A stretch of 31,278 nt of DNA from a virus. The notes below the pieces were generated by a model, which made no database searches, was not told where the DNA came from, and saw only the letters and a list, made by a program, of their open reading frames with translations. Shown here in pieces: positions 2,348-31,278 of this stretch. How positions within the stretch are numbered: the stretch's first letter is position 1; the number at the start of each line of letters is the position of its first letter. The stretch spans positions 1-31,278 of IMG/VR virus record IMGVR_UViG_3300017762_000037. One strand, 5' to 3'. The position numbers and the translations under genes are program-made.

Positions 2348-2509
2348 TTAAATTTCTCCCCTCTCTTTTGCTGCTGCAAATTCATCTCCAATATAATTAA
2401 CGTACTCTTCCAGGTCTGCTTGTGTCTCTCTTAGTTCCTGGCGTAAACTCCAGGCATAGACAACAAGGAACGAATGGCTAGCTATGAGTAACAATATAAA
2501 CAGATTCAT
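2348..2509 (-). CDS. Single-membrane-span small protein (53 aa)
   Basis: Start and stop overlap their neighbours: its ATG shares an A with the TAA of the ArdA-like gene (TAATG) and its own TAA touches the next ATG. Residues 2-20 (NLFILLLIASHSFLVVYAW) form one hydrophobic span; the rest is a charged helix (LRQELRETQADLEEYV) ending GEI. This looks like a small inner-membrane phage protein. Spanin or exclusion roles are possible but unsupported. Confidence 0.75.
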   Translation of the reverse strand: MNLFILLLIASHSFLVVYAWSLRQELRETQADLEEYVNYIGDEFAAAKERGEI

Positions 2510-3084
2510 TAGAAGCTACCCCATAGATACGTAACCCCGTTAATCTCTGCGCGCTCTAATCCATTAAGCATATACTCGCGGACTTCTCGCCAATTTATAA
2601 ACGGCGTAAGATATTCTGGAACATCATAATGTTCTACAAATCTATCTTCTAGCGCGTTCTCTTCCTCTTCCCGTGATGTAAAGACTGTTACACTGTCTGC
2701 AAAATCTTTAAACGTTTCCGTTGGTTCGTGATTAACGTCCAACTCATCACCCATAAGAAACACTTCTTTAAATGCTCTTACATAATCAAAATTAGGAACC
2801 AATTGAAGCAGCTGCACAAGTCCGTAAATCTCTTCGGCTAGCATGTACTCGCCGCCGCCAAAATCATTGTCCTGTATGTGTACTTCATCCCCGCCGCATG
2901 CGTACGGAGTCTTAGCTTTTTTGTGTATCTCTTCAATATCCAATGCTTTTTGGATTTGTTTAAGCGTTGTCTCTTTGGTAATTTGGAACCAATAAAAAGT
3001 AAGGCGCCCTTGATTGTAGCAAGCTAAACAGCCAGGACATATTTCTATATAGTTATTGTTTTCGATAGTTTCGATAGTATTCAT
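2509..3084 (-). CDS. ardA: ArdA-like antirestriction protein (191 aa)
   Basis: ArdA proteins mimic bent DNA and block type I restriction enzymes in the host cytoplasm. The N-terminus IEICPGCLACYNQGRLTFYW (about 13-32) matches the family's opening strand (consensus NLAAYNxGxLxGxW). The C-terminal region LEDRFVEHYDVPEYL, followed by FINWREVREYML, matches the ArdA third domain. The protein is strongly acidic, as a DNA mimic must be, and its 191 residues are near the family length of about 165-180. A good ribosome site (GGAAGGAG) precedes the ATG at 3084. It is the first gene after its own promoter, which suits early expression before host restriction acts. The odd feature is the cysteines C16, C19 and C22, not typical of ArdA. 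Confidence 0.8.
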   Translation of the reverse strand: MNTIETIENNNYIEICPGCLACYNQGRLTFYWFQITKETTLKQIQKALDIEEIHKKAKTPYACGGDEVHIQDNDFGGGEYMLAEEIYGLVQLLQLVPNFDYVRAFKEVFLMGDELDVNHEPTETFKDFADSVTVFTSREEEENALEDRFVEHYDVPEYLTPFINWREVREYMLNGLERAEINGVTYLWGSF

Positions 3085-3115
3085 TCTTCTAACTCCTTCC
3101 TAAAGTTATAATAAA

Positions 3116-3143
3116 ATTGTACCAAAATATAAAATTTATACAA
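3116..3143 (-). promoter_or_regulatory. Leftward promoter of the ArdA operon
   Basis: On the minus strand, TTGTAT (3143-3138), 16 bases, TACAAT (3121-3116) with an AT-rich spacer. The start falls about 25 bases before the ArdA ATG, leaving room for its GGAAGGAG ribosome site. It sits just downstream of a strong terminator, so this operon is transcribed separately from the preceding one. Confidence 0.6.
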
Positions 3144-3245
3144 GCATTTAATGTAATGTTTATAGGGTTTTATGTGTGGGACATAGTGAAGCAGCAAATT
3201 CAAGGACTCTCTCATGGCTTTTAAATACCCTGTTTTTTTCCAGGT

Positions 3246-3280
3246 AAAAGAAAAAGCAGCAACGAGGCGGCGCTGCTGCT
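3246..3280 (-). terminator. Strong intrinsic terminator
   Basis: Minus-strand AGCAGCAGCG pairs over ten bases (one G-U) with CGTTGCTGCT around a 6-base loop and is followed by TTTTCTTTT. It ends the long middle operon that begins near 8519, just past the 73-residue gene. Confidence 0.9.
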
Positions 3281-3304
3281 GATTCTCTTGAATTTCTTGG
3301 GGAT

Positions 3305-3526
3305 CTATTTTTTTATGTCGCCGATCTCCTTTAATTGTCCGACTAGAATTGCGTTTATCTCTTCGAGTCTATGGTTCTCTGTCTGTGCTAGGCGTATCTC
3401 TTGGGTTATGTTCTTCCATTCCCATAATCTACGTGTCCGCCATTGCTCGTTAGCAAAATAGTAACCTAACACTACGCTGCCGAGTGCGACCATGATATGA
3501 CTCACGACATTGAAGTGGAACTCCAT
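3305..3526 (-). CDS. Membrane-anchored coiled-coil protein (73 aa)
   Basis: Last gene before the terminator. Residues 6-25 (NVVSHIMVALGSVVLGYYFA) are a membrane span; the remainder is a charged helical tail suited to a coiled coil (about 38-68). This N-in, tail-out plan resembles small inner-membrane spanin or Rz-like proteins, but the gene lies far from the holin, so that is only a guess. Start: ATG overlapping the previous stop (TAATG), with AGGAGG in the previous coding end. Confidence 0.75.
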   Translation of the reverse strand: MEFHFNVVSHIMVALGSVVLGYYFANEQWRTRRLWEWKNITQEIRLAQTENHRLEEINAILVGQLKEIGDIKK

Positions 3527-3642
3527 TATTTTTCCTCCTCTAATTCGCCTACATTAAAAGTTATTGTTATTTGATCGCCATCATCACTTTTAGTCCAATA
3601 TGATATTGGGCAACTTGCTAACCATTCATCAAATTGATCCAT
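3526..3642 (-). CDS. Tiny hypothetical protein (38 aa)
   Basis: Both ends are TAATG overlaps with neighbours, and GGAGGTG precedes the ATG at 3642, which makes it a believable gene despite its size. The product begins MDQFDEWLASCPISYW and ends ELEEEK. That acidic tail is encoded by the GAGGAGG that serves as the ribosome site of the next gene. No family recognised. Confidence 0.65.
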   Translation of the reverse strand: MDQFDEWLASCPISYWTKSDDGDQITITFNVGELEEEK

Positions 3643-3851
3643 TACTTGACACCTCCTGCATTGTATTTAACTCCGTCTACTTTATATTGATTGTGCTTGT
3701 ACTTTATAGTTACTACTTCTTTACTCTCAAAGTCAAGTATCTTTGTGTTACCTTTCTCAAATTCTGCATTGTGTAAAGTTCGTAACACTTCATCTAGTGC
3801 AAATCCAAAATCAGTTTTAATTAATAGAGTTACTTCTTCTATGTTTACCAT
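3642..3851 (-). CDS. Hypothetical protein (69 aa)
   Basis: I choose the ATG at 3851 (MVNIEEVTLL), which shares bases with the previous TAA, over an in-frame ATG 21 bases further upstream lying inside the previous gene. The C-terminal half alternates hydrophobic and charged residues (KEVVTIKYKHNQYKVDGVKY), suggesting a small beta sheet. It carries two or more lysine-rich strands and no Cys. Function unknown; it belongs to the middle DNA-metabolism operon. Confidence 0.7.
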   Translation of the reverse strand: MVNIEEVTLLIKTDFGFALDEVLRTLHNAEFEKGNTKILDFESKEVVTIKYKHNQYKVDGVKYNAGGVK

Positions 3852-4057
3852 TATTCCGCGCTCTCTATACAATCATCACACCAATCACTATCTTGTGTAA
3901 CTTTTACTACTTCTAAGTCGCTTATGTCATAATCACAAAGTGAATATTCTCTTGCGTCTTGTATTACTTCATCTTTATGATCTCCAATACCAATAACAGT
4001 TATTGAAAATGTAACTTCATGTCTATGCGTGCATTCTTTTTCTTTAAGTTTAGCCAT
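3851..4057 (-). CDS. Small Cys-containing protein (68 aa)
   Basis: Start at ATG 4057 (MAKLKEKECTHRHEV), preceded by GGAGGAGGAG; the longer reading from 4096 has no ribosome site and overlaps the gene upstream. It has C9, H11, H13 near the N-terminus and CDDC close to the C-terminus, so metal binding is possible. The middle looks like a small alpha/beta fold. Its ATG lies inside the end of the preceding gene (ATGGCTAA, 8-base overlap). Confidence 0.7.
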   Translation of the reverse strand: MAKLKEKECTHRHEVTFSITVIGIGDHKDEVIQDAREYSLCDYDISDLEVVKVTQDSDWCDDCIESAE

Positions 4058-4181
4058 TACTCTCCTCCTCCAAACAACTTCTAATATCTTTATCATCTAA
4101 GTCGTGGATATATTCTATTGCTTGTTCCATATCCATAGCTGAAAATGATACAAACATTGTATATACTTTTGGTTTAGCCAT
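4050..4181 (-). CDS. Tiny hypothetical protein (43 aa)
   Basis: Starts at ATG 4181, overlapping the TAA of the clamp-like gene, with its ribosome site in that gene's GAGGAGGAA end. The sequence MAKPKVYTMFVSFSAMDMEQ runs into a helix and ends LEEESNG; the Glu codons form the ribosome site of the next gene. It resembles a single beta-alpha unit. No family recognised. Confidence 0.65.
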   Translation of the reverse strand: MAKPKVYTMFVSFSAMDMEQAIEYIHDLDDKDIRSCLEEESNG

Positions 4182-5023
4182 TATTCTTCCTCCTCCAATT
4201 CACAGTGCTGCGGCATGATCCATAACTGCTTTTCGGTTGCGTTATCTGTGCCGCTGCAAGTTTTCTCCATGAACACTGCGGTGTCATGCTTGCCCGTGTA
4301 ACTATACATGTATGTAAAGTGTTCATCCTTATTGTATGTTAAGAACTCGAACGCCCTCTTCATGTATACAGGAGAATACTGCATATAAGTAATCGGTTGT
4401 CTTCTGTCAGGATCTATTGCACCTCTAGAATCATTATAAAAATCCAGGAACACTCCTTTATTTCTGTTTACAGAAGCACCTATGTTCGTAATTATGTATG
4501 GTTCTATGTTGTCAATACGTACAGTTAAGTTATCGACTGTAACTCCAACGTCTATTGTATGGTCTATTTCCATATCATCATTCAGTATGTCCTTAGTTAG
4601 AATCTGCTGATTACCGTTCAATGATATGTATGTATGTCCGTCAACTTCCTTAGCACTAAAGTACTTAAACAGATGTGTGAGTTTAGCATTAAACTCTTCG
4701 ATAGTGTATGTACCATATACACTTCCTCTAATGCTATACCATATCTCATCTTGTGACATTACATAATCTTCGTCACCTTTATCTACATAACTTGACGCTA
4801 TGTGTATTCTGTCTTGACTATTCCAGGTTGTCATACCTAGAACGTATGAGTCACTTACCCATACGATCAATTTATTTTTTCGTACAACAAAATTAATAGT
4901 CTGTTGTATCTTTGCACCAGGCATGTGGGATTGTCTTTGTAATTTTTTATTGTCGCCTAACTTGGTCATTGCTTTAAGCAACTTCAAGTCGTTGTAGTCT
5001 AATTTAATGTTAACTTCTAACAT
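4181..5023 (-). CDS. Sliding-clamp-like protein (280 aa), tentative
   Basis: Possibly a DNA polymerase processivity clamp of the beta/PCNA fold. The basis is the C-terminal part: PVYMKRAFEFLTYNKDEHF, a following strand-rich stretch, and the ending QLWIMPQHCE. That ending resembles the clamp C-terminus, where a helix is followed by strands and a final YVxMPMRL-type strand. At 280 residues it is shorter than bacterial clamps (about 366) but longer than many phage clamps (about 220-260). No catalytic motif of any enzyme is visible. The neighbours (a PDDEXK nuclease and an Erf/SSB-like protein) fit a replication role. Start: ATG 5023 with GGAAAGGA upstream. A clamp call should be treated as a hypothesis. 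Confidence 0.45.
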   Translation of the reverse strand: MLEVNIKLDYNDLKLLKAMTKLGDNKKLQRQSHMPGAKIQQTINFVVRKNKLIVWVSDSYVLGMTTWNSQDRIHIASSYVDKGDEDYVMSQDEIWYSIRGSVYGTYTIEEFNAKLTHLFKYFSAKEVDGHTYISLNGNQQILTKDILNDDMEIDHTIDVGVTVDNLTVRIDNIEPYIITNIGASVNRNKGVFLDFYNDSRGAIDPDRRQPITYMQYSPVYMKRAFEFLTYNKDEHFTYMYSYTGKHDTAVFMEKTCSGTDNATEKQLWIMPQHCELEEEE

Positions 5024-5075: not shown

Positions 5076-5270
5076 TTATTTCCAACGGTTACGTTTTACT
5101 ATTTTCTTTTTGTTGTTATCTGCTTCACAAGGTAGTCCATCTTCATGGTTAAAATATTTATGTTGACATACCATGCACTTGTAATGTCTGTTGTATTTAA
5201 AATCTACGATCGCCATGAGTGACTGTAATTTTAACGCTGTACTGCGTGCAGCTTGATCGACTTGACTCAT
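5076..5270 (-). CDS. Small putative zinc-binding protein (64 aa)
   Basis: ATG at 5270 overlaps the stop of the nuclease gene (ATGA). An in-frame TTG 15 bases upstream is possible but less likely. Residues 32-48 carry C32, C35, H37, H42 and C48, a plausible zinc site; the C-terminus is a Lys/Arg-rich tail (NNKKKIVKRNRWK). Small zinc proteins with basic tails often bind nucleic acid. It probably works with the adjacent nuclease, but this is inferred. Confidence 0.65.
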   Translation of the reverse strand: MSQVDQAARSTALKLQSLMAIVDFKYNRHYKCMVCQHKYFNHEDGLPCEADNNKKKIVKRNRWK

Positions 5271-5644
5271 GGTAGCTGCTTCCAAAATGGATCATCATAA
5301 AAACTATTACCTATCTTACTCTCTACGATCTCCAGGAATGTATCCAATGTCAAGCACACTACGATCGGTACGCCATCAGGTTGCCTACGGGATCCATCTG
5401 TTTTTACCAAGCGCTTCCATACAAGTGCAGTAAATTCCGACTTTGACTTGCGGATAGACTTAGCTAACTCACGTGTTACATTAAGTGACTGTCTTGCCTT
5501 ACACTCAACATAAAAATCTGTACCATTCCAATTAAATAATACGTCTCCTTTATCATTCTTCCCACCTTCCGCAATCCTAGAACCATTAGTCATCTTAGCT
5601 ACGAACGTTTCTAGTTTAGTTCCCTGTTGTTTTTGCTTTGACAT
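5267..5644 (-). CDS. Hjc-like PDDEXK nuclease / Holliday junction resolvase (125 aa)
   Basis: Metal-dependent nuclease of the PDDEXK fold, most like archaeal Hjc and phage resolvases that cut branched DNA before packaging. Catalytic pattern: E12 in KLETFVAK, D34 in KGDVLF, then E47 and K49 in YVECKA, followed by a helix with RELAKSIRKS. The motif RIAEGGKNDKGDV is typical of the resolvase group. Length is near the family's usual 120-150. Start: ATG overlapping the previous stop (TAATG). A general restriction-type or VRR-like nuclease cannot be excluded. Active in the cytoplasm on replicating phage DNA. Confidence 0.75.
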   Translation of the reverse strand: MSKQKQQGTKLETFVAKMTNGSRIAEGGKNDKGDVLFNWNGTDFYVECKARQSLNVTRELAKSIRKSKSEFTALVWKRLVKTDGSRRQPDGVPIVVCLTLDTFLEIVESKIGNSFYDDPFWKQLP

Positions 5645-6081
5645 TACTCTTCCTTTTTAAATAATTTCCTGTCTTTAAGTGCTTTAGGTGAATTAAGTAT
5701 CTGTGCAATAGTAGTTATATAGTCGATCATATCCCATCTAGGTAACCTACCATAATCTATTTGTGTACCACGCTGCACGAATGAGTAACTAAAGTAATCA
5801 TACATATCGTGTACGACTTCCAATTCACCCACTCCTTTATTAGTAACGATACCGACTCTAACCCCACCATAATGTGGACCAGGTTCAGTAGGAAATGAAG
5901 GATCTTGTTTTAGTATAAGCTGTACTAAGTTAGATTCCTGTGCTGTATCGTAAGGAAAAAAATCAATCTTTGCAGACTGATCCTCTTCTATACAATATGT
6001 GATAGCTTCCAAAAAACTATCGCACTCGTCCATCATACTCCATACGTTACGTGCGCCTTGTGATTGTAATACTTCTTTCAT
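5644..6081 (-). CDS. Hypothetical protein (145-147 aa)
   Basis: Two starts are possible: ATG 6087, or ATG 6081, which shares bases with the TAA of the winged-helix gene; I give the second because this TAATG junction is the rule here. Acidic protein with a run of aromatic residues (VVHDMYDYFSYSF) and a C-terminal helix ending LFKKEE, whose codons make the ribosome site of the nuclease gene. No known motif recognised. The position beside the resolvase suggests DNA metabolism. Confidence 0.7.
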   Translation of the reverse strand: MKEVLQSQGARNVWSMMDECDSFLEAITYCIEEDQSAKIDFFPYDTAQESNLVQLILKQDPSFPTEPGPHYGGVRVGIVTNKGVGELEVVHDMYDYFSYSFVQRGTQIDYGRLPRWDMIDYITTIAQILNSPKALKDRKLFKKEE

Positions 6082-6341
6082 TAACATAACTCTAGTTGAA
6101 TATGATCATCAAGTCTATTTAAAAGCTCTTGTTTTTTCTTTTGATCATTAAGTTTGTACATGCTGACACCACCTTTATGTGTGTGCATGCTGCACTTATC
6201 ACCTAGTATGTAATCTTCACCATGATCTGCACGCATTTCTGATATTCTATTTCTTGCTGACCAACCAAACTCTATAAGTTCAGTAGCACAATGCCACTCG
6301 TTATCATTAAGTAACTGCAAGATCTCATCTCTCATACCCAT
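6081..6341 (-). CDS. Winged-helix / HTH protein (86 aa)
   Basis: Residues 4-40 (RDEILQLLNDNEWHCATEL, then IEFGWSARNRISEMR) form a helix-turn-helix like the first half of a winged helix. A wing-like hairpin follows (EDYILGDKCSMHTHKGGVSMYKL), then a C-terminal helix. Proteins of this type act as small transcription regulators or replication accessory factors. The start is ATG 6341 with GGAGGAGGAATA immediately upstream; a second ATG two codons later is too close to that site. Target unknown. Confidence 0.65.
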   Translation of the reverse strand: MGMRDEILQLLNDNEWHCATELIEFGWSARNRISEMRADHGEDYILGDKCSMHTHKGGVSMYKLNDQKKKQELLNRLDDHIQLELC

Positions 6342-6364: not shown

Positions 6365-6496
6365 TTAGTAATGTTTCTTTCTTCTATTCCAACCGTCACG
6401 AAATCCTTCCTCATAAGCATTTTGTGTTATAGGATGTGTGTATTTTTTTTCAGGCGTTTTGCGTCGTTTAATTATTTTTAGTATTATGTCTTCCAT
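6365..6496 (-). CDS. Tiny basic protein with AYEEGFRDGW motif (43 aa)
   Basis: ATG at 6496 overlaps the stop of the SET gene (TAATG), with AAAGGAGGAA upstream. The N-terminal half is Lys-rich (ILKIIKRRKTPEKKY). The C-terminus NAYEEGFRDGWNRRKKHY carries a pattern I know from many small phage proteins of unknown role (AYxEGFxDGW). Function unknown. Confidence 0.7.
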   Translation of the reverse strand: MEDIILKIIKRRKTPEKKYTHPITQNAYEEGFRDGWNRRKKHY

Positions 6497-6798
6497 TATT
6501 CTTCCTCCTTTGGTTTATACCATTCGTAACGTAAAGTTAATTCTGTACCTGCTGCAATGTGATCTCTTGTAAAAACATAGTGGTATCTTTGTACTTCAAC
6601 TCTTTGTAAGTTAGGATCTTCTGCATGATTAATAAAACCACCGAGTGGTGTACGATGTAGCTTCTTAGTTATGAAATCTTCTACGTGTGTTATGCCTAAA
6701 CACTCACTCATAGGTATATCTTTTAATGTAAATAGACCTAGCCCATCTATCTTGCTAGGTTGTATTGTTAAATGTTTAGGAAGTGGACGGTATGTCAT
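6496..6798 (-). CDS. SET-domain protein, putative lysine methyltransferase (100 aa)
   Basis: SET domains transfer methyl groups from S-adenosylmethionine to protein lysines. The core motifs are present in order: SKIDGLGLF at 15-23 (N-terminal strand, usual SxIHGxGxF), GGFINHAEDPN at 53-63 (usual RFINHSCxPN, the SAM-binding knot) and GTELTLRYEWY at 84-94 (usual GEELTYDY, with the catalytic Tyr). At about 100 residues it is a minimal SET core without pre/post-SET zinc sites. I use ATG 6798 (MTYRPLPKHL). An ATG at 6828 gives ten extra residues but lies deeper in the preceding gene; neither has a strong ribosome site. The C-terminal KEEE encodes the next gene's GGAGGAA. Substrate unknown. Confidence 0.8.
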   Translation of the reverse strand: MTYRPLPKHLTIQPSKIDGLGLFTLKDIPMSECLGITHVEDFITKKLHRTPLGGFINHAEDPNLQRVEVQRYHYVFTRDHIAAGTELTLRYEWYKPKEEE

Positions 6799-6919
6799 TG
6801 CCCAAATCAAAGTCTTCATCAGGATCATTATGTTTATTGATCATAACTCCTAACACCATCTCTTCAAATTCTTTTGAACCTATTTTATAACCTGGTCCAT
6901 CAAACATATTCTTAGCCAC
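6776..6919 (-). CDS. Tiny acidic protein (47 aa, GTG start)
   Basis: GTG at 6919 with GGAAGAGGTGG upstream, overlapping the end of the 37-residue gene by eight bases (GTGGCTAA); an ATG four codons later is the alternative. The product contains NMFDGPGYKIGSKEFEEMVL and a very acidic C-terminal half (DPDEDFDLGNDIP). No family recognised. Its end overlaps the SET gene start by 23 bases. Confidence 0.6.
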   Translation of the reverse strand: MAKNMFDGPGYKIGSKEFEEMVLGVMINKHNDPDEDFDLGNDIPSTS

Positions 6920-7025
6920 GTTCCACCTCTTCCCTTACATCTATTGGTATGTGCTTCGGTGCATTTTCAAACTCAATGTCCTGGAATACACCTGCACTAT
7001 CCACTTTAATTACTATTGTAAACAT
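6912..7025 (-). CDS. Tiny hypothetical protein (37 aa)
   Basis: ATG 7025 shares bases with the TAA of the Erf/SSB-like gene, and its 3' end contains the ribosome site and start of the next gene, so it is bracketed by coupled junctions. The sequence MFTIVIKVDSAGVFQDIEF suggests a small beta hairpin. Function unknown. Confidence 0.6.
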   Translation of the reverse strand: MFTIVIKVDSAGVFQDIEFENAPKHIPIDVREEVERG

Positions 7026-7825
7026 TAGAACGGTGCTGTACCTGGTGCTGTCTCATCTATTGGTTTAGCTTTTGGCATTGATGGCATGAACCATTCTTCA
7101 GGTGCTTGCTTTGCTGCATTGAAACTCTCCATGTAATAGATACGTGGGTTACCATTGTCGCAATCTTTATTCTTACACTTCCAATCAGGATAAGTTTCCT
7201 TGATCTTACCATTAGCTTTATCTATTCTGTTGTCCCATAGATCACTCTTGCAGCTTAAACATTTAGGTTCTATTGTACCGTTAGTAACAACCTTTTCCTC
7301 TACTACAATACCTATTGCTTCTAGTGCTTCTTCTGTAGATTTATTTTCTAAGTTACCAACTGATCCCTCTGTCTTTTGTTGTACAGATTGTGGAGGAGTA
7401 TAACTATTGCTATTGCTAGTTTTAGCTACACTCTTGGTAACTTGATTAGATATCCTATCATTAGAGGTAGGTTGGTTGCCCGCACTACCTTTCAAGTTCT
7501 CCACTTTCTGCATTTCTGTGACTGATGGTCTTGCTTTTGCTGTATAACCGTACCAGTTTGCAAGTCCACGACCTATTGCAGATGTCTCTGCATTTTCAAT
7601 CCATGATGTTAAGTTAGCACCTTTAGGACCTTGCTGATCCTGTGCTATACCTGTTGCTACAGGATTTATATCTTCTATATCTTTATATATCATAGCTCTT
7701 ACAACTATGCTTTGATGATCAGGTGATATAGATAGTTGCTCTGTATAAACTCTACCATTAGGATTAGCTGCCCAAAACTTTGCTAGTCTATCCTCTACTT
7801 GATCGTACTCATCTTGCCAACCCAT
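7025..7825 (-). CDS. Erf/SSB-like recombination protein with C-terminal zinc ribbon (266 aa)
   Basis: Residues about 5-105 match a family common in actinobacterial phages that I know as ssDNA-binding or Erf-type annealing proteins: VEDRLAKFWAANPNGRVYTE, VVVRAMIY-type strands, and the signature IENAETSAIGRGLANWYGY at about 76-94. A low-complexity Ser/Gln/Asn linker (about 110-165) follows. Then comes a four-Cys zinc ribbon (C189, C192, C217, C222) and a Pro-rich end ...TAPF that recalls the terminal Pro-Phe of SSB tails. Expected to coat or anneal single strands during replication or recombination, together with the nearby nuclease. Start: ATG 7825, TAATG coupled, with GGAGGAGGAA. Whether it is a true annealase or only an SSB cannot be told here. 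Confidence 0.6.
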   Translation of the reverse strand: MGWQDEYDQVEDRLAKFWAANPNGRVYTEQLSISPDHQSIVVRAMIYKDIEDINPVATGIAQDQQGPKGANLTSWIENAETSAIGRGLANWYGYTAKARPSVTEMQKVENLKGSAGNQPTSNDRISNQVTKSVAKTSNSNSYTPPQSVQQKTEGSVGNLENKSTEEALEAIGIVVEEKVVTNGTIEPKCLSCKSDLWDNRIDKANGKIKETYPDWKCKNKDCDNGNPRIYYMESFNAAKQAPEEWFMPSMPKAKPIDETAPGTAPF

Positions 7826-10847: not shown

Positions 10848-11012
10848 TTATCTGTTTGCTGCCCACATATTATCCACCATGTTAGGGTACTTGCGACCAT
10901 TAGCTTTAGCTCTTGCTTTTGCTTTAGACTTTTGTGCAGGTGATAGCTTCTTGCTTTTACCTAATCCACTAGGTCTTGGTTTGTCCCATACGGGTTTACT
11001 TTTTTTTGCCAT
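10848..11012 (-). CDS. Small basic conserved phage protein (54 aa)
   Basis: Very Lys/Arg-rich: MAKKSKPVWDKPRPSGLG, then KKLSPAQKSKAKARAKANGR and PNMVDNMWAANR. This pattern, with SPxQKxxAKxRAKxxGR and PNxVDN, recurs in phage proteins that I know only as domains of unknown function. Likely binds DNA or sits inside the head; no proof. The ATG stands five bases from a TATAAT, so the mRNA may be leaderless. Confidence 0.75.
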   Translation of the reverse strand: MAKKSKPVWDKPRPSGLGKSKKLSPAQKSKAKARAKANGRKYPNMVDNMWAANR

Positions 11013-11017
11013 AGTAT

Positions 11018-11044
11018 ATTATAACCTACCATTTATGTTTGCAA
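11018..11044 (-). promoter_or_regulatory. Probable promoter giving a leaderless mRNA
   Basis: Minus-strand TTGCAA (11044-11039), 15 bases, TATAAT (11023-11018). The ATG of the 54-residue gene is at 11012, only five bases past the -10, so transcription would start at or next to the start codon. It would drive the lysis block. Confidence 0.45.
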
Positions 11045-11277
11045 GCCCAATAACCTGCTGTAAGTTTGCTCTTCTTAGAAGAACACTTATGTCTTGCATG
11101 GAAGTTTTGATTCCTTTTAGTTCCTTTAGGACTACCTTTTTTGCCTGCTTGCCCAAAGCGTACCATCTTGACAGTACCTTTTTCTTTAGCCAAAACAACA
11201 TGTGATTTACCGCCAGACGTTTGTGCTTTAGGTTTGTTGTAACCACTAAAGGATTGTCCTCTGTAGTTAATAGCCAT
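11026..11277 (-). CDS. Small basic conserved phage protein, RFGQAG type (83 aa)
   Basis: The core MVRFGQAGKKGSPKGTK, followed by NFHARHKC and LTAGYWACKHKW, matches a short protein found in many aquatic phages (consensus RFGxxG...FxARH...GKxTxxYWA...KW). Strongly basic; C65, H61 and C79 might bind metal. Function is unknown; capsid-interior DNA binding is a guess. It starts two bases after the stop of the 22-residue gene. Confidence 0.75.
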   Translation of the reverse strand: MAINYRGQSFSGYNKPKAQTSGGKSHVVLAKEKGTVKMVRFGQAGKKGSPKGTKRNQNFHARHKCSSKKSKLTAGYWACKHKW

Positions 11278-14105: not shown

Positions 14106-14837
14106 TCATACAATATTTAATTTAATTTCTTCTAACACTTTTTTCTGCGCATTTGAAGCATGAAACTTTGCATATCTTTTTGCTAAAGGCACACCACTCC
14201 ACCAAGCAGAACTTTCAGCACACGAACTTGCTATGTTGTATAGTTTTTCAGTTAAATGAAATCTATGTAATTTTATTTTTTCTTGTGTATTAAAGTTTAC
14301 ATAAGCTAAAGGTTCATCTTCTTCTATCTTCCATTCGTTTATACCTTCCCATAAATTTATTTCAAATCGTAAAGGTCTAAACCAACTGCCTATATCATAT
14401 CTACCTGGAACAACAGCACCATATTTAGTATGTTTTGCTTGATGAAAATAAGGTGCAGTCAAGGTTATATCTACAGATTTATCTGCAAAAAATATATGTG
14501 GCATATGATAATCAAACATCTTTTGTCCTGTTAATGTATCGTCTCTTAATATTTCTGAATGCATATGGTTTTTAGAAGTAGGTATTACTGGTGATTGTCT
14601 ATTAGGTAAATAAAAATCAGTAAATTTACTATGTGTTTGTATTGGATTTTTTATAACTAATGTATGCGTACCTAAATCTTGAAAAGCTGTACATTCATCA
14701 AATCCTGGCATATCTTTTTGTCTATTTTTATTTTTGTTTTTAATTTTGCTTTTAAACAAAGACTGTGGTTCTTCATACATCCAAGAAAAATCATCTTCAG
14801 TTGGATGATTGAATGCAGAATAATAAATATTGATCAT
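14106..14837 (-). CDS. Conserved aquatic-phage protein of unknown function, oxygenase partner (243 aa)
   Basis: ATG 14837 overlaps the end of the 2OG oxygenase gene (ATGA). It starts INIYYSAFNHP and contains FDECTAFQDLGTHTLVI. The central segment VVPGRYDIGSWFRPLRFEIN is followed by LWEGINEWKIEEDEPLAYVNF. I recall this pattern (IYYS..., D-I-G-W-F-R-P, GDPLxYVxF) from proteins next to 2OG-Fe(II) oxygenases in marine phages, but its activity is not known. No signal peptide or membrane span. Codon use is more AT-rich than the tail genes. It probably acts with the oxygenase on a shared substrate, perhaps a virion protein or sugar. Confidence 0.65.
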   Translation of the reverse strand: MINIYYSAFNHPTEDDFSWMYEEPQSLFKSKIKNKNKNRQKDMPGFDECTAFQDLGTHTLVIKNPIQTHSKFTDFYLPNRQSPVIPTSKNHMHSEILRDDTLTGQKMFDYHMPHIFFADKSVDITLTAPYFHQAKHTKYGAVVPGRYDIGSWFRPLRFEINLWEGINEWKIEEDEPLAYVNFNTQEKIKLHRFHLTEKLYNIASSCAESSAWWSGVPLAKRYAKFHASNAQKKVLEEIKLNIV

Positions 14838-15349
14838 GAAAAATCAAAGTTAACTAATACTCTTATAGGAGTATCTGATTGTGTAACTCCACTATGTAAA
14901 CTTTTACCATCAAAAACTAGCAGACTATTTTGTACACTATCAAAAAATTTATTAGGTTTATAAAATTTAGTACCACCATTACAAGTTGTTAAATTATAAA
15001 CTGCTGTTGTGTAACTATCTAATTCAGGATAATCTTCATGTTGTTCATGCGTTATATTAACACCACTATTTGTGTATAAATTAGCTTTTATTCTTAAAAG
15101 ATTAGTATGTTTTTTACCAACATAAGCACTAATTGTATTTAATAAAGGAATAAACTCTTGAAATTGTGGACTATTTATACCTGTGTTTACATCATATAAA
15201 CTGTGTGCAAACATAAAATCATCATCTTGTGTTGATAATTCTTTATGCAATGAAGTTGCGTAATGATACCAAGCAAAATAATTACCTGTTGTTATGTTTA
15301 ATAAAGAATTGTAATTGTCGTCAGATAAAATATTTGTATGTAAATGCAA
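14834..15349 (-). CDS. 2OG-Fe(II) oxygenase (171 aa, TTG start)
   Basis: Non-haem iron dioxygenase of the prolyl-4-hydroxylase type. The iron triad is visible as H104-E-D106 (EQHEDYPEL), H152 (KSLHSGV) and, for 2-oxoglutarate, R163 (TPIRVLVNF), with the usual 11-residue distance from His to Arg. NGGTKFY (124-130) is the standard strand before the second His. The start is TTG 15349 with AAAGGTGG five bases upstream. Such genes are frequent in marine phages and may hydroxylate a virion protein or a nucleotide; the substrate here is unknown. It lies between the tail genes and the lysis block. Confidence 0.85.
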   Translation of the reverse strand: MHLHTNILSDDNYNSLLNITTGNYFAWYHYATSLHKELSTQDDDFMFAHSLYDVNTGINSPQFQEFIPLLNTISAYVGKKHTNLLRIKANLYTNSGVNITHEQHEDYPELDSYTTAVYNLTTCNGGTKFYKPNKFFDSVQNSLLVFDGKSLHSGVTQSDTPIRVLVNFDFS

Positions 15350-21383: not shown

Positions 21384-22430
21384 TTAACCTACTACGTTAT
21401 CAATTGCACAGTGATATTGTTGAGGTCCGAAATCGAACGCCATTTCCATATATACTGCTTTAGCAATTCTTGCTTGATCGTTTTGATCTAAGTCTCTTAC
21501 AAACATAGTTCCATAACCTGGAATGTTAAGGAATACTGGTTTGACGAAACTAAGGTCAACGATAAATGCTTGCTTAGATCCTGATATAGTACCTGCAGGC
21601 AAGACATCGGATAATGCTAGACCGATAGATCCAAATGGTGTAACCACTGTATCAATGTCAACACCTCCAATGTTTCTGTCTCTTGGTAAAATACCATAAT
21701 TCACAGATCCAACTGTAGCTTTAATTAACTCTTTGTTTAGATCCAACAACATTGTTGGGGAAACGAAAAGTACTGGTTGTCTCATTGGCGCACCTGCGTC
21801 ATAGAGAGTTTTCATTGCTGAAGCAATGATGTCCCAGTTAATTTTTTGAGCTGCAGGTGTTCCTGCGCCGTTATCGTTATTAACGGAGTTGCCGCCTGTT
21901 AAGTCTTGGTGTGCTTTAAGACCTCTCATCTGACGGTTGCCTGAAGCACCATCAGAATAAGTTGCGTTAAATGCTGCCCACTCTACTTTCTTTGCGACTT
22001 GTTCTAATACTAATTCCATCTGATAAGCTAACTCATCATTGATTGGACTTGTTCCTGCTAGTGCGAGTGCAGGATCAGAGTTCTTGTAGTTCCCTGAAAG
22101 ATTAAACGGTACGATTTCGCCTGAAGCTGCTTGTGCAGTATAAGATACTTGCGCGGCTTCATGAAAAATCTGTAGTACACCCTGTTGTGACGCTCTGCTT
22201 CTACCTGAATAGTTTGGGGATCCACCCTCATCATCAGGAGTAACAGCGGTAACAACTGCATTGTCTTGTGTTTGGAATTGGAAGAATGTCGAGTTAATCG
22301 CATTTCCACCATTCAAACCACCTGCTGCTGCAAGTAAAGGTGTCCTATGAGGTGTAATCTTGAATAGTTCACCAGTAAAGTTATTAACGTCACTAGCTAC
22401 TATTGGGTTTGCACCTGATATTGCTGCCAT
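21384..22430 (-). CDS. Major capsid protein, DUF5309/SU10-type HK97 fold (348 aa)
   Basis: Shell subunit of the head. The N-terminal ELFKITPHRTPLLAAAGGLN is the usual opening of the SU10-type capsid family. The sections ISFVSYTA-like (FHEAAQVSYTAQAASGEIVP), ELAYQMELVLEQVAKKVEWA (spine helix) and QPVLFVSPTMLLDLNKELI, and the C-terminal FVRDLDQNDQARIAKAVYME, fit the HK97 fold. Length (348) is normal. It is preceded by a scaffold gene and followed by a hairpin. No cleaved delta domain is seen. Start: ATG 22430, about 30 bases after the scaffold stop. Confidence 0.88.
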   Translation of the reverse strand: MAAISGANPIVASDVNNFTGELFKITPHRTPLLAAAGGLNGGNAINSTFFQFQTQDNAVVTAVTPDDEGGSPNYSGRSRASQQGVLQIFHEAAQVSYTAQAASGEIVPFNLSGNYKNSDPALALAGTSPINDELAYQMELVLEQVAKKVEWAAFNATYSDGASGNRQMRGLKAHQDLTGGNSVNNDNGAGTPAAQKINWDIIASAMKTLYDAGAPMRQPVLFVSPTMLLDLNKELIKATVGSVNYGILPRDRNIGGVDIDTVVTPFGSIGLALSDVLPAGTISGSKQAFIVDLSFVKPVFLNIPGYGTMFVRDLDQNDQARIAKAVYMEMAFDFGPQQYHCAIDNVVG

Positions 22431-26699: not shown

Positions 26700-29600
26700 T
26701 TATCTCCTACCTGGATTGTACTTAGGAAAATTAGTACTGTCAGCAACATCTAATGGTCTCCCGTATTTATCTTCTAGTTTTGGTAAACCTGCTTCATATT
26801 CTGATTCTAGTTGTGAAACAAGTCCTGATGGTATACGTCTATCTTTACCATTGTAACCTTTTTCTTTTAGTTTAGTAGATACATACATATCTCTTTTGAC
26901 ATTGTATATCCAATCGTTCATACCGAACCCATCTTTGACAGTATCTAATGCTGAAATAGCACCTTCTTTAATACTCTCAAACATTGGTCCGAGTAACTTA
27001 TTGTTCTTTGCTTCTTCAACTATAGGATTAGCTGCTTCTTTATATATATCGAATGTACCACTTACACTACCTGCTAAGGTACCTTGATCTTCAGGAGATC
27101 CATATAGCTTTTCAAAAGTTGTGTCAGTTTTGCTTGGATCATAAATGTCTTGTGCAACATCTGCGACTGCACCACCTATAGTTTCAGTAGCATTTCCTAC
27201 ACCTGTTGTCTTTGAAACTAAAAGATCTAACATAACTGGTCCTAATACTGCAGCGTCAAATAGATCAAACCCATTACCTAATGTTTGGAGTAGACCATTT
27301 CTTGCTGCTACTTTTGCTACATTTTCTGCAGGTACTTGTGCAAACAATTCATCCATAACTTTTGTTGCATGATTTTGTACTACGTTATCTTGGACATCAC
27401 CAAATATAGATTGTCTTGCAATAAGTTCTCTAAGCTCGTCAAAGTTTTGTAAAAATACACCATCAATTGCTGTAGGATTTATTTCACTAAGATTAAAAAA
27501 CCGTTCGTCATTAATATTTAATGTACTATACAACTCTAAATACTGTTGTTTTTTTATATCAGTAAGTTCTTCATTTTGCATAATTGTCTCTATAGGTATA
27601 AAATTAGCAATTTGTTTAATACTGTTATCATCAAGATCATTAAGACTTGTTGTACCCATATTTATTTGATCAAGTAAAAATAAAGTATCTTCATTTAATT
27701 CTGTTGCTTTAATATCGTAGGTTGTTTTTCTTGGTATTCCTGTACCAAACTTGTCACCTGGATCTACTATACCGAAAACATCATGGAAATTATTTCTTGC
27801 ACGACCACCGCCTGTACCTGCAACTATCTCTATACCGCTTTCGGATAGAGATTTTAATAAAGCTATATCTGCGTATTTAGTTGGATTTCCTCCTGGTATT
27901 GGAGTGCTTCTAGTTTGTCCATTCATCTGATTTAAAAAGTTTATAAGGTCTCTATCTCCATCTTTAAAACCAAAAGATTCGTAAACTAAATCATCTACTA
28001 ACTTACTTCCACCATTTTCATTAGGATTATAGTCTCTAAAGTTACCATCTAGATTTTTTGCTTCATAGCGTAGTGCATGTTTTTGTCTAATTAGTTCAGC
28101 AGCTATAGCCATATCTTGTAGGAGATTATCATTTATGCTGATTCCATTCCCACCTTTTGCAATATATTCATATCCCATTTCCAATGGTAAATCTTTAAAG
28201 AACTCTGCTTTAAGTTGTGGATAATCATTTAGATACTCTGTAATATTTTTAATGGACAACAATTCAGAAATAGCTTGATGTGAACCTAGTGAAGCAGGAT
28301 CTACTTGCGTTGCAGCAAATTCAAACATATCTTCAAATTGTATTCTTTTATATGGAAAAAACTCATCTGCTTTTGCAGTAAATAAAACGTGTCCTGCTGT
28401 AGTTCGATTCGTATGGTACCATTCGGGAGTAACAAATGTTGTACTATCAAAAGTACGATCAACTTTTTTAATATACTGAAATGCTTCATTATATAGTTCA
28501 GTTGCTATTGCTTCTCTTGGTCTAATCATTCCTGCCATAATATCTTGCATATTACTAAAGTTTATTTTAAATTCATCTTTGCCTTTAAGAATATTTTTAA
28601 TAACAACTTCCATACCTTCATCGGTACTCATAATATTTGTATAATATTTTTTAATTGTTTCTCTTGCAGGACCATCTTTTCTTGCGTCAAGTAACATTTG
28701 AGAAACTATTCTATCTGCTTCTTCAGTTCTTATAACTTGAAAATCTCTACTTGTTGCTGCTTTGTGTAAATCTTCTATTAAATAATCAAGTGACTCTTCT
28801 GATAGCACATGTTCAGGACTAGAGTTCTGTATAACCTGTCCTAATAGTTTTGTAACATTAGGATTATTAGTTTGTCTTATAAGTGGCATGTCTGTATGTA
28901 ATATTGAATTTGGTTCTGCATTGAATTTTATTTGCATAATACCTGGATCAACTAACAATGTGTTTTCATTAGTTACACTTTTTAAATAGTTTCCTTCTTT
29001 AGGATTCACTACTACTTCTAAACCAATTTCACGTAAATCACGATTCATCATGTCTATTAAGTCTGTATCATCTACATCTAGAATATCTTGGTGATTTAAT
29101 ATTTGATATACTGCGTCGAACACTTCATTATTCATAGCACTTATTGTTCCTGGATTATGACCACCTGTTGCATATGAAGCTGCAAGAAATGGATTTGAAG
29201 TTGTGTACATATAATTTAAACGTAGTTGTTGGTTTCTATATTTTCTAGGATCTAACCAGTCAATATTATTTTCGTAGGTAATACGGTTTAAAAATCCTTG
29301 CATAGTATTTTCAAATTCCATCATAGGTGCAGTTGTTCCAAAATTTGTAGCAGGTAAATATGTTTGCAGTATGTCTAAAACTTTTCTACCTTTTGCGTTA
29401 AGACCATTACCACCGTGATAAACCATCCCACTTAAATTACCGTCAGCAGTTTTAACTAGCTTTTGTGTATCTAACATAGCTTCAGGCATAGCAGGTGAAT
29501 TGTTTTTATAGTAATCCCATGCAGGTGTATATATCTCTTCGGGAAATGTTTTAGTATAAAACTTGTTATTTTTATTTCTAATAGATTCCATCGCATTACC

Positions 29601-31278
29601 TACTGCAGGATTGTTATTTTTTTGATACTCAATAAGATCATCAACTGCAACCTCTAAACCTTCTTTAGCAATGATTGTATTTTGGGGATCTAAAAAAGAA
29701 TAAAGTGCAGCGTCAGTATCAGCACTTTTTAAATAATACAAATTGTCATCTGCTTCTTCCACCATTACTCGTTCAAATGATTCTGAAATTATTGTTTTAA
29801 ATTCTTGACTGTTAATAATTTTATCTGCATTTTGTTGCATAGCAACAATAACTGGTGTTATTTGCATGCCTTCGTTTAATTTTCTTTTTAATAAAGATCT
29901 GTAATATCTTTTAGTATGTTCTGTAATTAATTTTGTAACGCGCTTTTTACCTTTCTCAGTTAGGTCTGCGTCAAAAATAAACTCGCTGTTCATCATTTGA
30001 TTTCTTGTAGGTACTACATTGCCTTCAATATCTGCAGAACCTAATGTAACTATTGTTGGGTTTTTTATTGCAGAGTGCATAATATCTATAAATATAAAGT
30101 CAGATCTCATTTGATCCATAGCATTGAATTTTATATTATTGCCATAATCCATTTTACCCATTTGTCTAATGCTATCAATCATTGCTTTGTTTTGACGATC
30201 AATAACATTGTTACCTTCTATAGGTATTATTGGTTGACCAACTTGTTCACGTACTACATTACTACCGTTTATAATATCAATGTTTCGTTTTGCAGCAGCT
30301 TGTGTTTGTATTTTAAGATTTTCAACATCTTCAAAATCATATACAGCTGTGCCTTTAATTATTGTAAACATATTAGATTTATCAAAATATTTGTTTTTTA
30401 AAGAAGTTGTTAATGCGTCTTCTACAAACTCTGTGTGTCCAAATGCAAGTTCTGCTGATCCGTCAATAACATCTTCAAGTTTTATCCATTGATAAGATAA
30501 AGCGTCATCTCCTGCTTTTGGTTTCCATTCTGTAAAAGTAGATTTTATTTGTCCGTTGACTACTTCATCATTTTGTAAATCTTTTATAATCGTAAACGCA
30601 CCACCAACGTTTACACCACTAGCTGCTCTTGCGTCCCAATCATATCTATTGTATTTAATAGGTAAAGGTTGTGAAGCTCTAATAAATTTACTCTCTAAAC
30701 CAACTTCTTCAACTGCTTCACGCAATGCTTCTAATGCAAAAATTCTAGAAGCACTTCCGCTTTCGTTTGGTATAAATTTACCATCAATATTAAAATAGAA
30801 CTCTTGCAAACGTCCTACTTCATTAGGATCAACAACACTTTTAATTATTTTTTCATCAGACATTTCTGCTTCAACTATGCCACCAGGTAACGCAAACAAA
30901 TCTCTATGTGGACCACGCTTGCGTTTAATAACAAGAAGTTCTATAGTCCCATCTTGTGCTTCTTTAAAAATTACATTGTCTGCTGTGTTCTGACGATCTT
31001 TAAATTTCTCATATACAAAGTCATTGTTAACTTCTGCAACATCGTCAGATAGTCCTTCGTCTAATAGCAAACTTTCTTTTGCAAATCTTGAACTTTGAGG
31101 ATCTCCTTCGTAATTATAGAATGCTGAAGCTGTATCATCATCAAGATCAAATCCCATGTTTCTCCAAAAGCTACTACTGTATGCTGATTCTAAAGTTTTA
31201 TCTAATAAAGTAATAGGTACATTTATTTCGTCTGATAATTGTTTTAAAGCGTCAACCATTTTTCTACCAATGCCTTGA
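26700..31278 (-). CDS. Giant virion protein with NUDIX and possible ADP-ribosyltransferase-like domain (partial, open at right edge)
   Basis: The frame stays open to the window edge: six codons upstream of ATG 31259 are open and no ribosome site precedes it, so the true start may be off-window. From that ATG there are 1519 residues. Residues about 92-285 are a NUDIX hydrolase: DNVIFKEA, ELLVIKRKRG, then FALPGG (122-127). The second half of the Nudix box, ALREAVEEVGLE (178-189), follows after about 45 inserted residues. A second region (about 611-790) shows VYHGGNG (613-619) and YMYTTSNPFLAASYATGG (683-700), which recall the H-Y part of ART/PARP-like folds; this is tentative. The rest is mainly helical, with an amphipathic C-terminal portion (about 1335-1445). 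Followed by the transglycosylase gene, so ejection with DNA is likely. Confidence 0.7.
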   Translation of the reverse strand, partial: QGIGRKMVDALKQLSDEINVPITLLDKTLESAYSSSFWRNMGFDLDDDTASAFYNYEGDPQSSRFAKESLLLDEGLSDDVAEVNNDFVYEKFKDRQNTADNVIFKEAQDGTIELLVIKRKRGPHRDLFALPGGIVEAEMSDEKIIKSVVDPNEVGRLQEFYFNIDGKFIPNESGSASRIFALEALREAVEEVGLESKFIRASQPLPIKYNRYDWDARAASGVNVGGAFTIIKDLQNDEVVNGQIKSTFTEWKPKAGDDALSYQWIKLEDVIDGSAELAFGHTEFVEDALTTSLKNKYFDKSNMFTIIKGTAVYDFEDVENLKIQTQAAAKRNIDIINGSNVVREQVGQPIIPIEGNNVIDRQNKAMIDSIRQMGKMDYGNNIKFNAMDQMRSDFIFIDIMHSAIKNPTIVTLGSADIEGNVVPTRNQMMNSEFIFDADLTEKGKKRVTKLITEHTKRYYRSLLKRKLNEGMQITPVIVAMQQNADKIINSQEFKTIISESFERVMVEEADDNLYYLKSADTDAALYSFLDPQNTIIAKEGLEVAVDDLIEYQKNNNPAVGNAMESIRNKNNKFYTKTFPEEIYTPAWDYYKNNSPAMPEAMLDTQKLVKTADGNLSGMVYHGGNGLNAKGRKVLDILQTYLPATNFGTTAPMMEFENTMQGFLNRITYENNIDWLDPRKYRNQQLRLNYMYTTSNPFLAASYATGGHNPGTISAMNNEVFDAVYQILNHQDILDVDDTDLIDMMNRDLREIGLEVVVNPKEGNYLKSVTNENTLLVDPGIMQIKFNAEPNSILHTDMPLIRQTNNPNVTKLLGQVIQNSSPEHVLSEESLDYLIEDLHKAATSRDFQVIRTEEADRIVSQMLLDARKDGPARETIKKYYTNIMSTDEGMEVVIKNILKGKDEFKINFSNMQDIMAGMIRPREAIATELYNEAFQYIKKVDRTFDSTTFVTPEWYHTNRTTAGHVLFTAKADEFFPYKRIQFEDMFEFAATQVDPASLGSHQAISELLSIKNITEYLNDYPQLKAEFFKDLPLEMGYEYIAKGGNGISINDNLLQDMAIAAELIRQKHALRYEAKNLDGNFRDYNPNENGGSKLVDDLVYESFGFKDGDRDLINFLNQMNGQTRSTPIPGGNPTKYADIALLKSLSESGIEIVAGTGGGRARNNFHDVFGIVDPGDKFGTGIPRKTTYDIKATELNEDTLFLLDQINMGTTSLNDLDDNSIKQIANFIPIETIMQNEELTDIKKQQYLELYSTLNINDERFFNLSEINPTAIDGVFLQNFDELRELIARQSIFGDVQDNVVQNHATKVMDELFAQVPAENVAKVAARNGLLQTLGNGFDLFDAAVLGPVMLDLLVSKTTGVGNATETIGGAVADVAQDIYDPSKTDTTFEKLYGSPEDQGTLAGSVSGTFDIYKEAANPIVEEAKNNKLLGPMFESIKEGAISALDTVKDGFGMNDWIYNVKRDMYVSTKLKEKGYNGKDRRIPSGLVSQLESEYEAGLPKLEDKYGRPLDVADSTNFPKYNPGRR

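Follow-up and report, generated by a model that had tools for sequence, protein, structure and literature searches.

Gene organization of the SET locus

The window analysed here, a stretch of 31,278 nucleotides comprising positions 1 to 31,278 of the IMG/VR virus record IMGVR_UViG_3300017762_000037, encodes a small SET-domain protein in a row of genes arranged in the order 266-aa gene, SET gene, g86, g147, RusA-like/PDDEXK-like nuclease gene and clamp-like gene (Table 1). The initial annotation had placed the SET gene in an operon with Erf/SSB-like, nuclease and clamp-like genes. This context stood for the nuclease-like gene and, weakly, for the clamp-like gene, but for the 266-aa neighbour neither Pfam, PDB profiles nor PHROGs confirmed the Erf/SSB-like label: the protein had no match in Pfam or PDB profiles, and its PHROGs match carries no function. 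One relative in the loose neighbour cluster of this gene gave a borderline Rad52 match (20.2 bits vs 20.3). Matches to up45, a small ORF overlapping the start of the SET gene, came from 107 fetched loci, a number that includes overlapping loci and repeated contigs.

Table 1. Genes of the SET locus and conserved motifs of the SET protein (window coordinates; residues in 100-aa numbering)
Feature	Position	Strand	Description	Basis
266-aa gene (upstream neighbour)	7025..7825	minus	266 aa; PHROG_11717 (no function given)	PHROGs match
up45	6776..6919	minus	small upstream ORF, 47 aa, GTG start; overlaps first 23 bases of SET gene	read from sequence
SET gene	6496..6798	minus	SET-domain protein; ATG start, 100 aa + stop	ORF, Pfam SET, AlphaFold2 model, fold matches
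G19-L20-G21	6736..6744	minus	GxG motif, SET motif I, putatively SAM-binding	relatives' column counts; role from general SET knowledge
R49-[TL]-P-L-G-G-F55	6634..6654	minus	family signature directly before NH motif	88-sequence alignment
N57-H58...P62-N63	6610..6630	minus	SET motif III of pseudoknot	column counts; aligns with NHSKDPN of vSET 1n3j
E86-L-T-L-R-Y91	6526..6543	minus	SET motif IV, presumed catalytic Tyr	column counts; Y91 aligns with residue 105 of 1n3j_A
g86 (downstream neighbour)	6081..6341	minus	86 aa; no known family	Pfam/PHROG searches
g147	5644..6087	minus	147 aa; no Pfam match	
RusA-like resolvase/PDDEXK-like nuclease candidate	5267..5644	minus	125 aa	PHROG_244, E 2.6e-8; Pfam PDDEXK_15 only E 0.12
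Clamp-like protein	4181..5023	minus	280 aa; weak support	sole PDB profile match, beta sliding clamp, E 0.0058

The longest ORF at the SET locus (6496-6828) encodes 110 aa, and this form of the protein also matches Pfam SET. Because the ATG of the MTY start lies one codon past an in-frame stop in relatives such as that of locus L006, the start at 6798 (MTYRPLP..., 100 aa) was preferred over 6828, as in the initial annotation. The resulting 100-residue product is MTYRPLPKHLTIQPSKIDGLGLFTLKDIPMSECLGITHVEDFITKKLHRTPLGGFINHAEDPNLQRVEVQRYHYVFTRDHIAAGTELTLRYEWYKPKEEE, and its ends read MTYRPLPKHLTI...EWYKPKEEE. The dN/dS of the SET gene, calculated against relatives differing appreciably from it, was 0.07-0.22, and the ORF is a real gene under purifying selection.

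Sequence features and predicted structure of the SET protein

The 100-aa protein matched Pfam SET (PF00856) at residues 51-91 with an E-value of 3.1e-8; the score, 34.4 bits against a curated cutoff of 22.4, bears out the assignment for which the initial annotation had proposed this profile search. All 92 members of the relatives' alignment individually matched Pfam SET. A profile built from these relatives was compared with solved structures, and the SET domain of MLL4/KMT2D was the best match (E 4.5e-10), with vSET also found (E 4.6e-8). Almost the full profile of PHROG_28741 was covered by the protein (1-97 of 100; E 5.5e-19); judging from this match, the family is already present, unnamed, in PHROGs. 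The PADLOC models of anti-phage defence proteins gave no match to the SET protein.

In SET enzymes, SAM binding and catalysis depend on the motifs GxG and NH...PN and on the terminal Tyr. Their counterparts in the window protein are G19-L-G21, N57-H58-A-E-D-P62-N63 and E86-L-T-L-R-Y91; the core motifs that had been noticed within about 100 residues are thus present, and they are conserved in 88 relatives. Fourteen positions (L6, S15, G21, G35, H38, R49, P51, L52, G53, F55, N57, N63, E86 and Y91) are invariant in all 88 sequences, H58 (87/88) and G19 (84/88) are nearly so and P62 is kept in 76 of 88, while identities to the window protein fall as low as 37% within the set of relatives. A Tyr is found at position 94 in 71 of the 88. 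In the alignment, R49-[TL]-P-L-G-G-F and GxxH form a signature of this SET family. RFINHxCxPN and ELxFDY have been described as SET pseudoknot motifs (PMC3980110).

An AlphaFold2 model based on the 88-sequence alignment reached a mean pLDDT of 91.8 and a pTM of 0.79; clear uncertainty is confined to the ten C-terminal residues (pLDDT 66), at which the lysine channel is expected to close. The first-ranking Foldseek hit of the model was vSET (3kma; E 1.9e-5, TM 0.69/0.66). In VIA-align, the vSET and MLL1 SET domains tied as best matches (Z 11.6), vSET being aligned over 87 residues at 2.2 A; this alignment spans residues 5-91 of the model, with both predicted knot motifs inside. PR-domain structures were also among the Foldseek and VIA matches. 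The protein is therefore confidently predicted to be a SET domain with nothing around it, nearest to vSET and MLL-type SET domains. A model lacking the SET pseudoknot or a SAM pocket had been named beforehand as an argument against the assignment; at the level of the fold, the model obtained is a SET domain. Taken with the Pfam score above the cutoff and the preserved motifs, it lends good support to the earlier prediction of a minimal SET methyltransferase.

Comparison with known SET proteins

vSET (PBCV-1 A612L; PDB 1n3j and 3kma), a histone H3K27 methyltransferase of a chlorella virus, is a stand-alone minimal viral SET protein like the phage protein. It is the closest structural match by Foldseek and, tied, by VIA, and its NH...DPN and Tyr motifs align with those of the phage protein. 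It differs in its length (119 vs 100 residues), in sequence (about 23% identity) and in the absence of RTPLGGF, the signature of the phage family, from the part aligned. The substrate of vSET is a eukaryotic histone, whereas the host of the phage is presumably a bacterium and should have no H3. MLL/COMPASS-type SET domains (KMT2A-D), which gave the best sequence-profile match and shared the best VIA match, are eukaryotic and have their own extra SET-flanking regions and activator subunits.

Among phage proteins, PHROG_28741 represents the same family as the window protein, and PHROGs assigns no function to it. Two uncultured Caudovirales proteins in BFVD, A0A6J5PTS6 and A0A6J5L8Y2, also have the SET fold and are already annotated as SET, but they are longer (263 and 128 residues, respectively) and 18-26% identical to the window protein over the aligned part. 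SET relatives were thus already known in phages, as PHROG_28741 and under UniProt-derived SET names; the identification of PHROG_28741 as SET is made here. A full-text literature search returned no paper on phage SET proteins, which does not equal absence from the literature. Chlamydia NUE and Legionella RomA/LegAS4 are secreted SET effectors whose target is chromatin in their eukaryotic hosts (PMC2904774, PMC10653858). They are likewise prokaryote-encoded SET methyltransferases, whereas the window gene is phage-borne and has marine bacterial relatives.

Presence and absence of the SET gene in the operon

In total, 78 loci were fetched by the 266-aa gene, and the SET gene was located downstream of it on the same strand in 42 of them, 174-321 bases behind in 41 of the 42. 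Of 81 viral loci, 32 had, close to SET, a member of the loose neighbour cluster that holds the 266-aa (PHROG_11717-type) gene. When the fetched viral loci showing both the 266-aa gene and the nuclease gene were considered (51 loci, which are not independent and include several close relatives), SET was present in 35 and absent in 16. The alignment of one such SET-less locus (L193) with a SET-containing one (L177) showed that exactly the SET gene is missing from the former, the flanks being closely similar on both sides, and no SET match was found anywhere on the 44-kb contig of L193. These patterns, 35 loci with and 16 without SET and one lacking exactly this gene, show SET to be an optional cassette that occupies a constant position in the operon. 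SET is genuinely, though not obligatorily, linked to these DNA-metabolism genes.

Different neighbourhoods were found in cultured phages. In P-SSM7, SET comes shortly after nrdB, separated from it by a single small gene; in P-RSM6, SET is followed by a gp25-like gene; and in Kolga, a gene with an AAA-protein annotation precedes SET, and genes on the opposite strand face it.

Distribution in viruses and bacteria

Among 50,697 named phage records, the SET family was found in four phages (six records), namely Prochlorococcus phages P-SSM7 and P-RSM6, Pelagibacter phage Kolga and marine virus AG-345-P14, in which the genes are annotated as hypothetical at most or left unannotated. The DNA of the window itself had no match among named phages. 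At least 592 viral-contig stretches in IMG/VR encode a SET relative (592 of the 600 pattern-matching stretches listed). The earlier statement that SET proteins are uncommon in phages therefore holds for named records but not for marine viral contigs.

When one genome per species was searched (84,980 species), 54 contigs carried a SET relative, most of them marine by title; the plasmids searched contained no match to the family. Several bacterial copies reside on long contigs with shared gene order, at fixed chromosomal sites: for example, six Porticoccaceae-type genomes share the order fabB-SET-peroxiredoxin-ssb, and three genomes share argC-SET-proC, the neighbours having been named by reading their sequences. 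In loci L116, L118 and L123 (about 3000-4900), an argC-like and a proC-like gene immediately flank SET, which apparently lies within a row of arginine/proline biosynthesis genes. The chromosomal neighbours (fabB, peroxiredoxin and ssb; argC and proC; M16 peptidase and glycosyltransferase-like) differ among the groups and gave no clue to the substrate. A tree of 126 members (108 columns) was poorly resolved, with viral and genome-contig sequences interleaved and at least five changes between the two labels forced by starred branches, although some of the 'genome contigs' may be phage themselves. The SET family is rare among cultured phages, common in ocean viruses and also present in some marine bacteria.

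Possible function and targets

Since the motifs are conserved in a set of relatives with identities down to 37%, the SET protein is best read as a SAM-dependent protein lysine methyltransferase that is active. Such an enzyme would bind SAM via G19-x-G21 and N57-H58, the C-terminal E86...Y91 strand would thread through the NH...PN loop, and Y91 would place the substrate lysine for methyl transfer. As pre- and post-SET parts are absent, the lysine channel may be closed by the protein's own short tail (Tyr 94) or by pairing with another molecule. The gene would be an accessory one acting on a host protein, or on an otherwise broadly available one, rather than a fixed part of a replication module. 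This role appears the most likely because of the clean gain or loss of the gene in a constant operon, its occurrence within unrelated gene orders in cyanophages and in one pelagiphage, and its relatives on marine bacterial chromosomes; the host-directed action is suggested by gene distribution alone. We consider it probable that, as predicted, the protein is a catalytically active lysine methyltransferase whose role is accessory and probably host-directed.

Most work on SET enzymes has concerned eukaryotes and intracellular pathogens that target eukaryotic chromatin. A large family of SET proteins of about 100 residues in ocean phages and marine bacteria implies non-histone substrates in prokaryotes. 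A broader and more tentative proposal, which we regard as possible but rather doubtful, is that minimal SET enzymes widespread in marine phages, carried as an optional cassette, act during infection by lysine methylation, rewriting host or host-defence proteins, as a prokaryotic counterpart of the action of vSET on host histones. The question of the target is directly testable, given the small protein, the isolate members (P-SSM7, P-RSM6 and Kolga) and the natural operon variants with and without SET.

The enzyme might instead methylate a phage protein encoded in its own operon (the 266-aa, nuclease or clamp-like protein) and thereby tune replication or recombination, much as the initial annotation had suggested in naming a replication protein as a possible target. 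Because the PHROG_11717-type neighbour recurs beside SET in many viral contigs, at the spacing described above, some probability must be left to an operon partner. This proposal is, however, weakened by the 16 of 51 contigs that contain both operon ends without SET, one of them a clean SET-less version, and by the other locations of SET, close to nrdB or to a gp25-like gene in cyanophages and also on bacterial chromosomes. For a gene that is optional and found in unrelated gene orders, a replication protein of this operon is an unlikely target. The other target named in the initial annotation, a host nucleoid protein, was neither favoured nor contradicted by these results. A non-catalytic SET fold that serves for binding, a role possible for some PR/SET domains, would accord with the PR-domain structures among the fold matches and with the short and poorly modelled tail that is meant to complete the active site; yet GxG, NH and Tyr are kept in essentially all of the 88 diverse relatives, which is unexpected for a dead enzyme and renders this reading improbable. 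A chance resemblance to SET, or an ORF that is not a gene, might be argued from the single-sequence Pfam match covering residues 51-91 only, but such a reading has a negligible probability and is ruled out by a dN/dS well below 1, by the SET match of every relative on its own and by the confidently predicted fold with SET proteins as top hits.

Other genes in the window

Several other genes of the window, all on the minus strand, were also inspected. The product of 2509-3084 (191 aa), located downstream in the same gene block as SET, matched ArdA antirestriction proteins just under the cutoff (PF07275, 26.3 bits vs 27) and is a possible anti-defence gene by this similarity. A weak resemblance to NUDIX proteins was seen in a stretch close to the N-terminus of the 1519-aa product of 26700-31259 (Pfam E 0.0047; PHROG MutT/NUDIX E 0.0024). 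The gene at 14834-15349 matched PHROG_274, labelled DNA endonuclease V (E 3.9e-29), but this label may be doubtful because Pfam gave only a weak DUF6445 match (E 0.059). An SU10-type major capsid protein is encoded at 21384-22430. Its nearest named relatives are in Mycobacterium phages (about 31% identity), and Propionibacterium and Bifidobacterium phages were also among the hits; these distant relatives give only a hint of an actinobacterial host. Small lysine-rich basic proteins of 54 and 83 aa, neither with a Pfam match, are encoded at 10848-11012 and 11026-11277, respectively, and are conceivable candidate substrates of a lysine methyltransferase.
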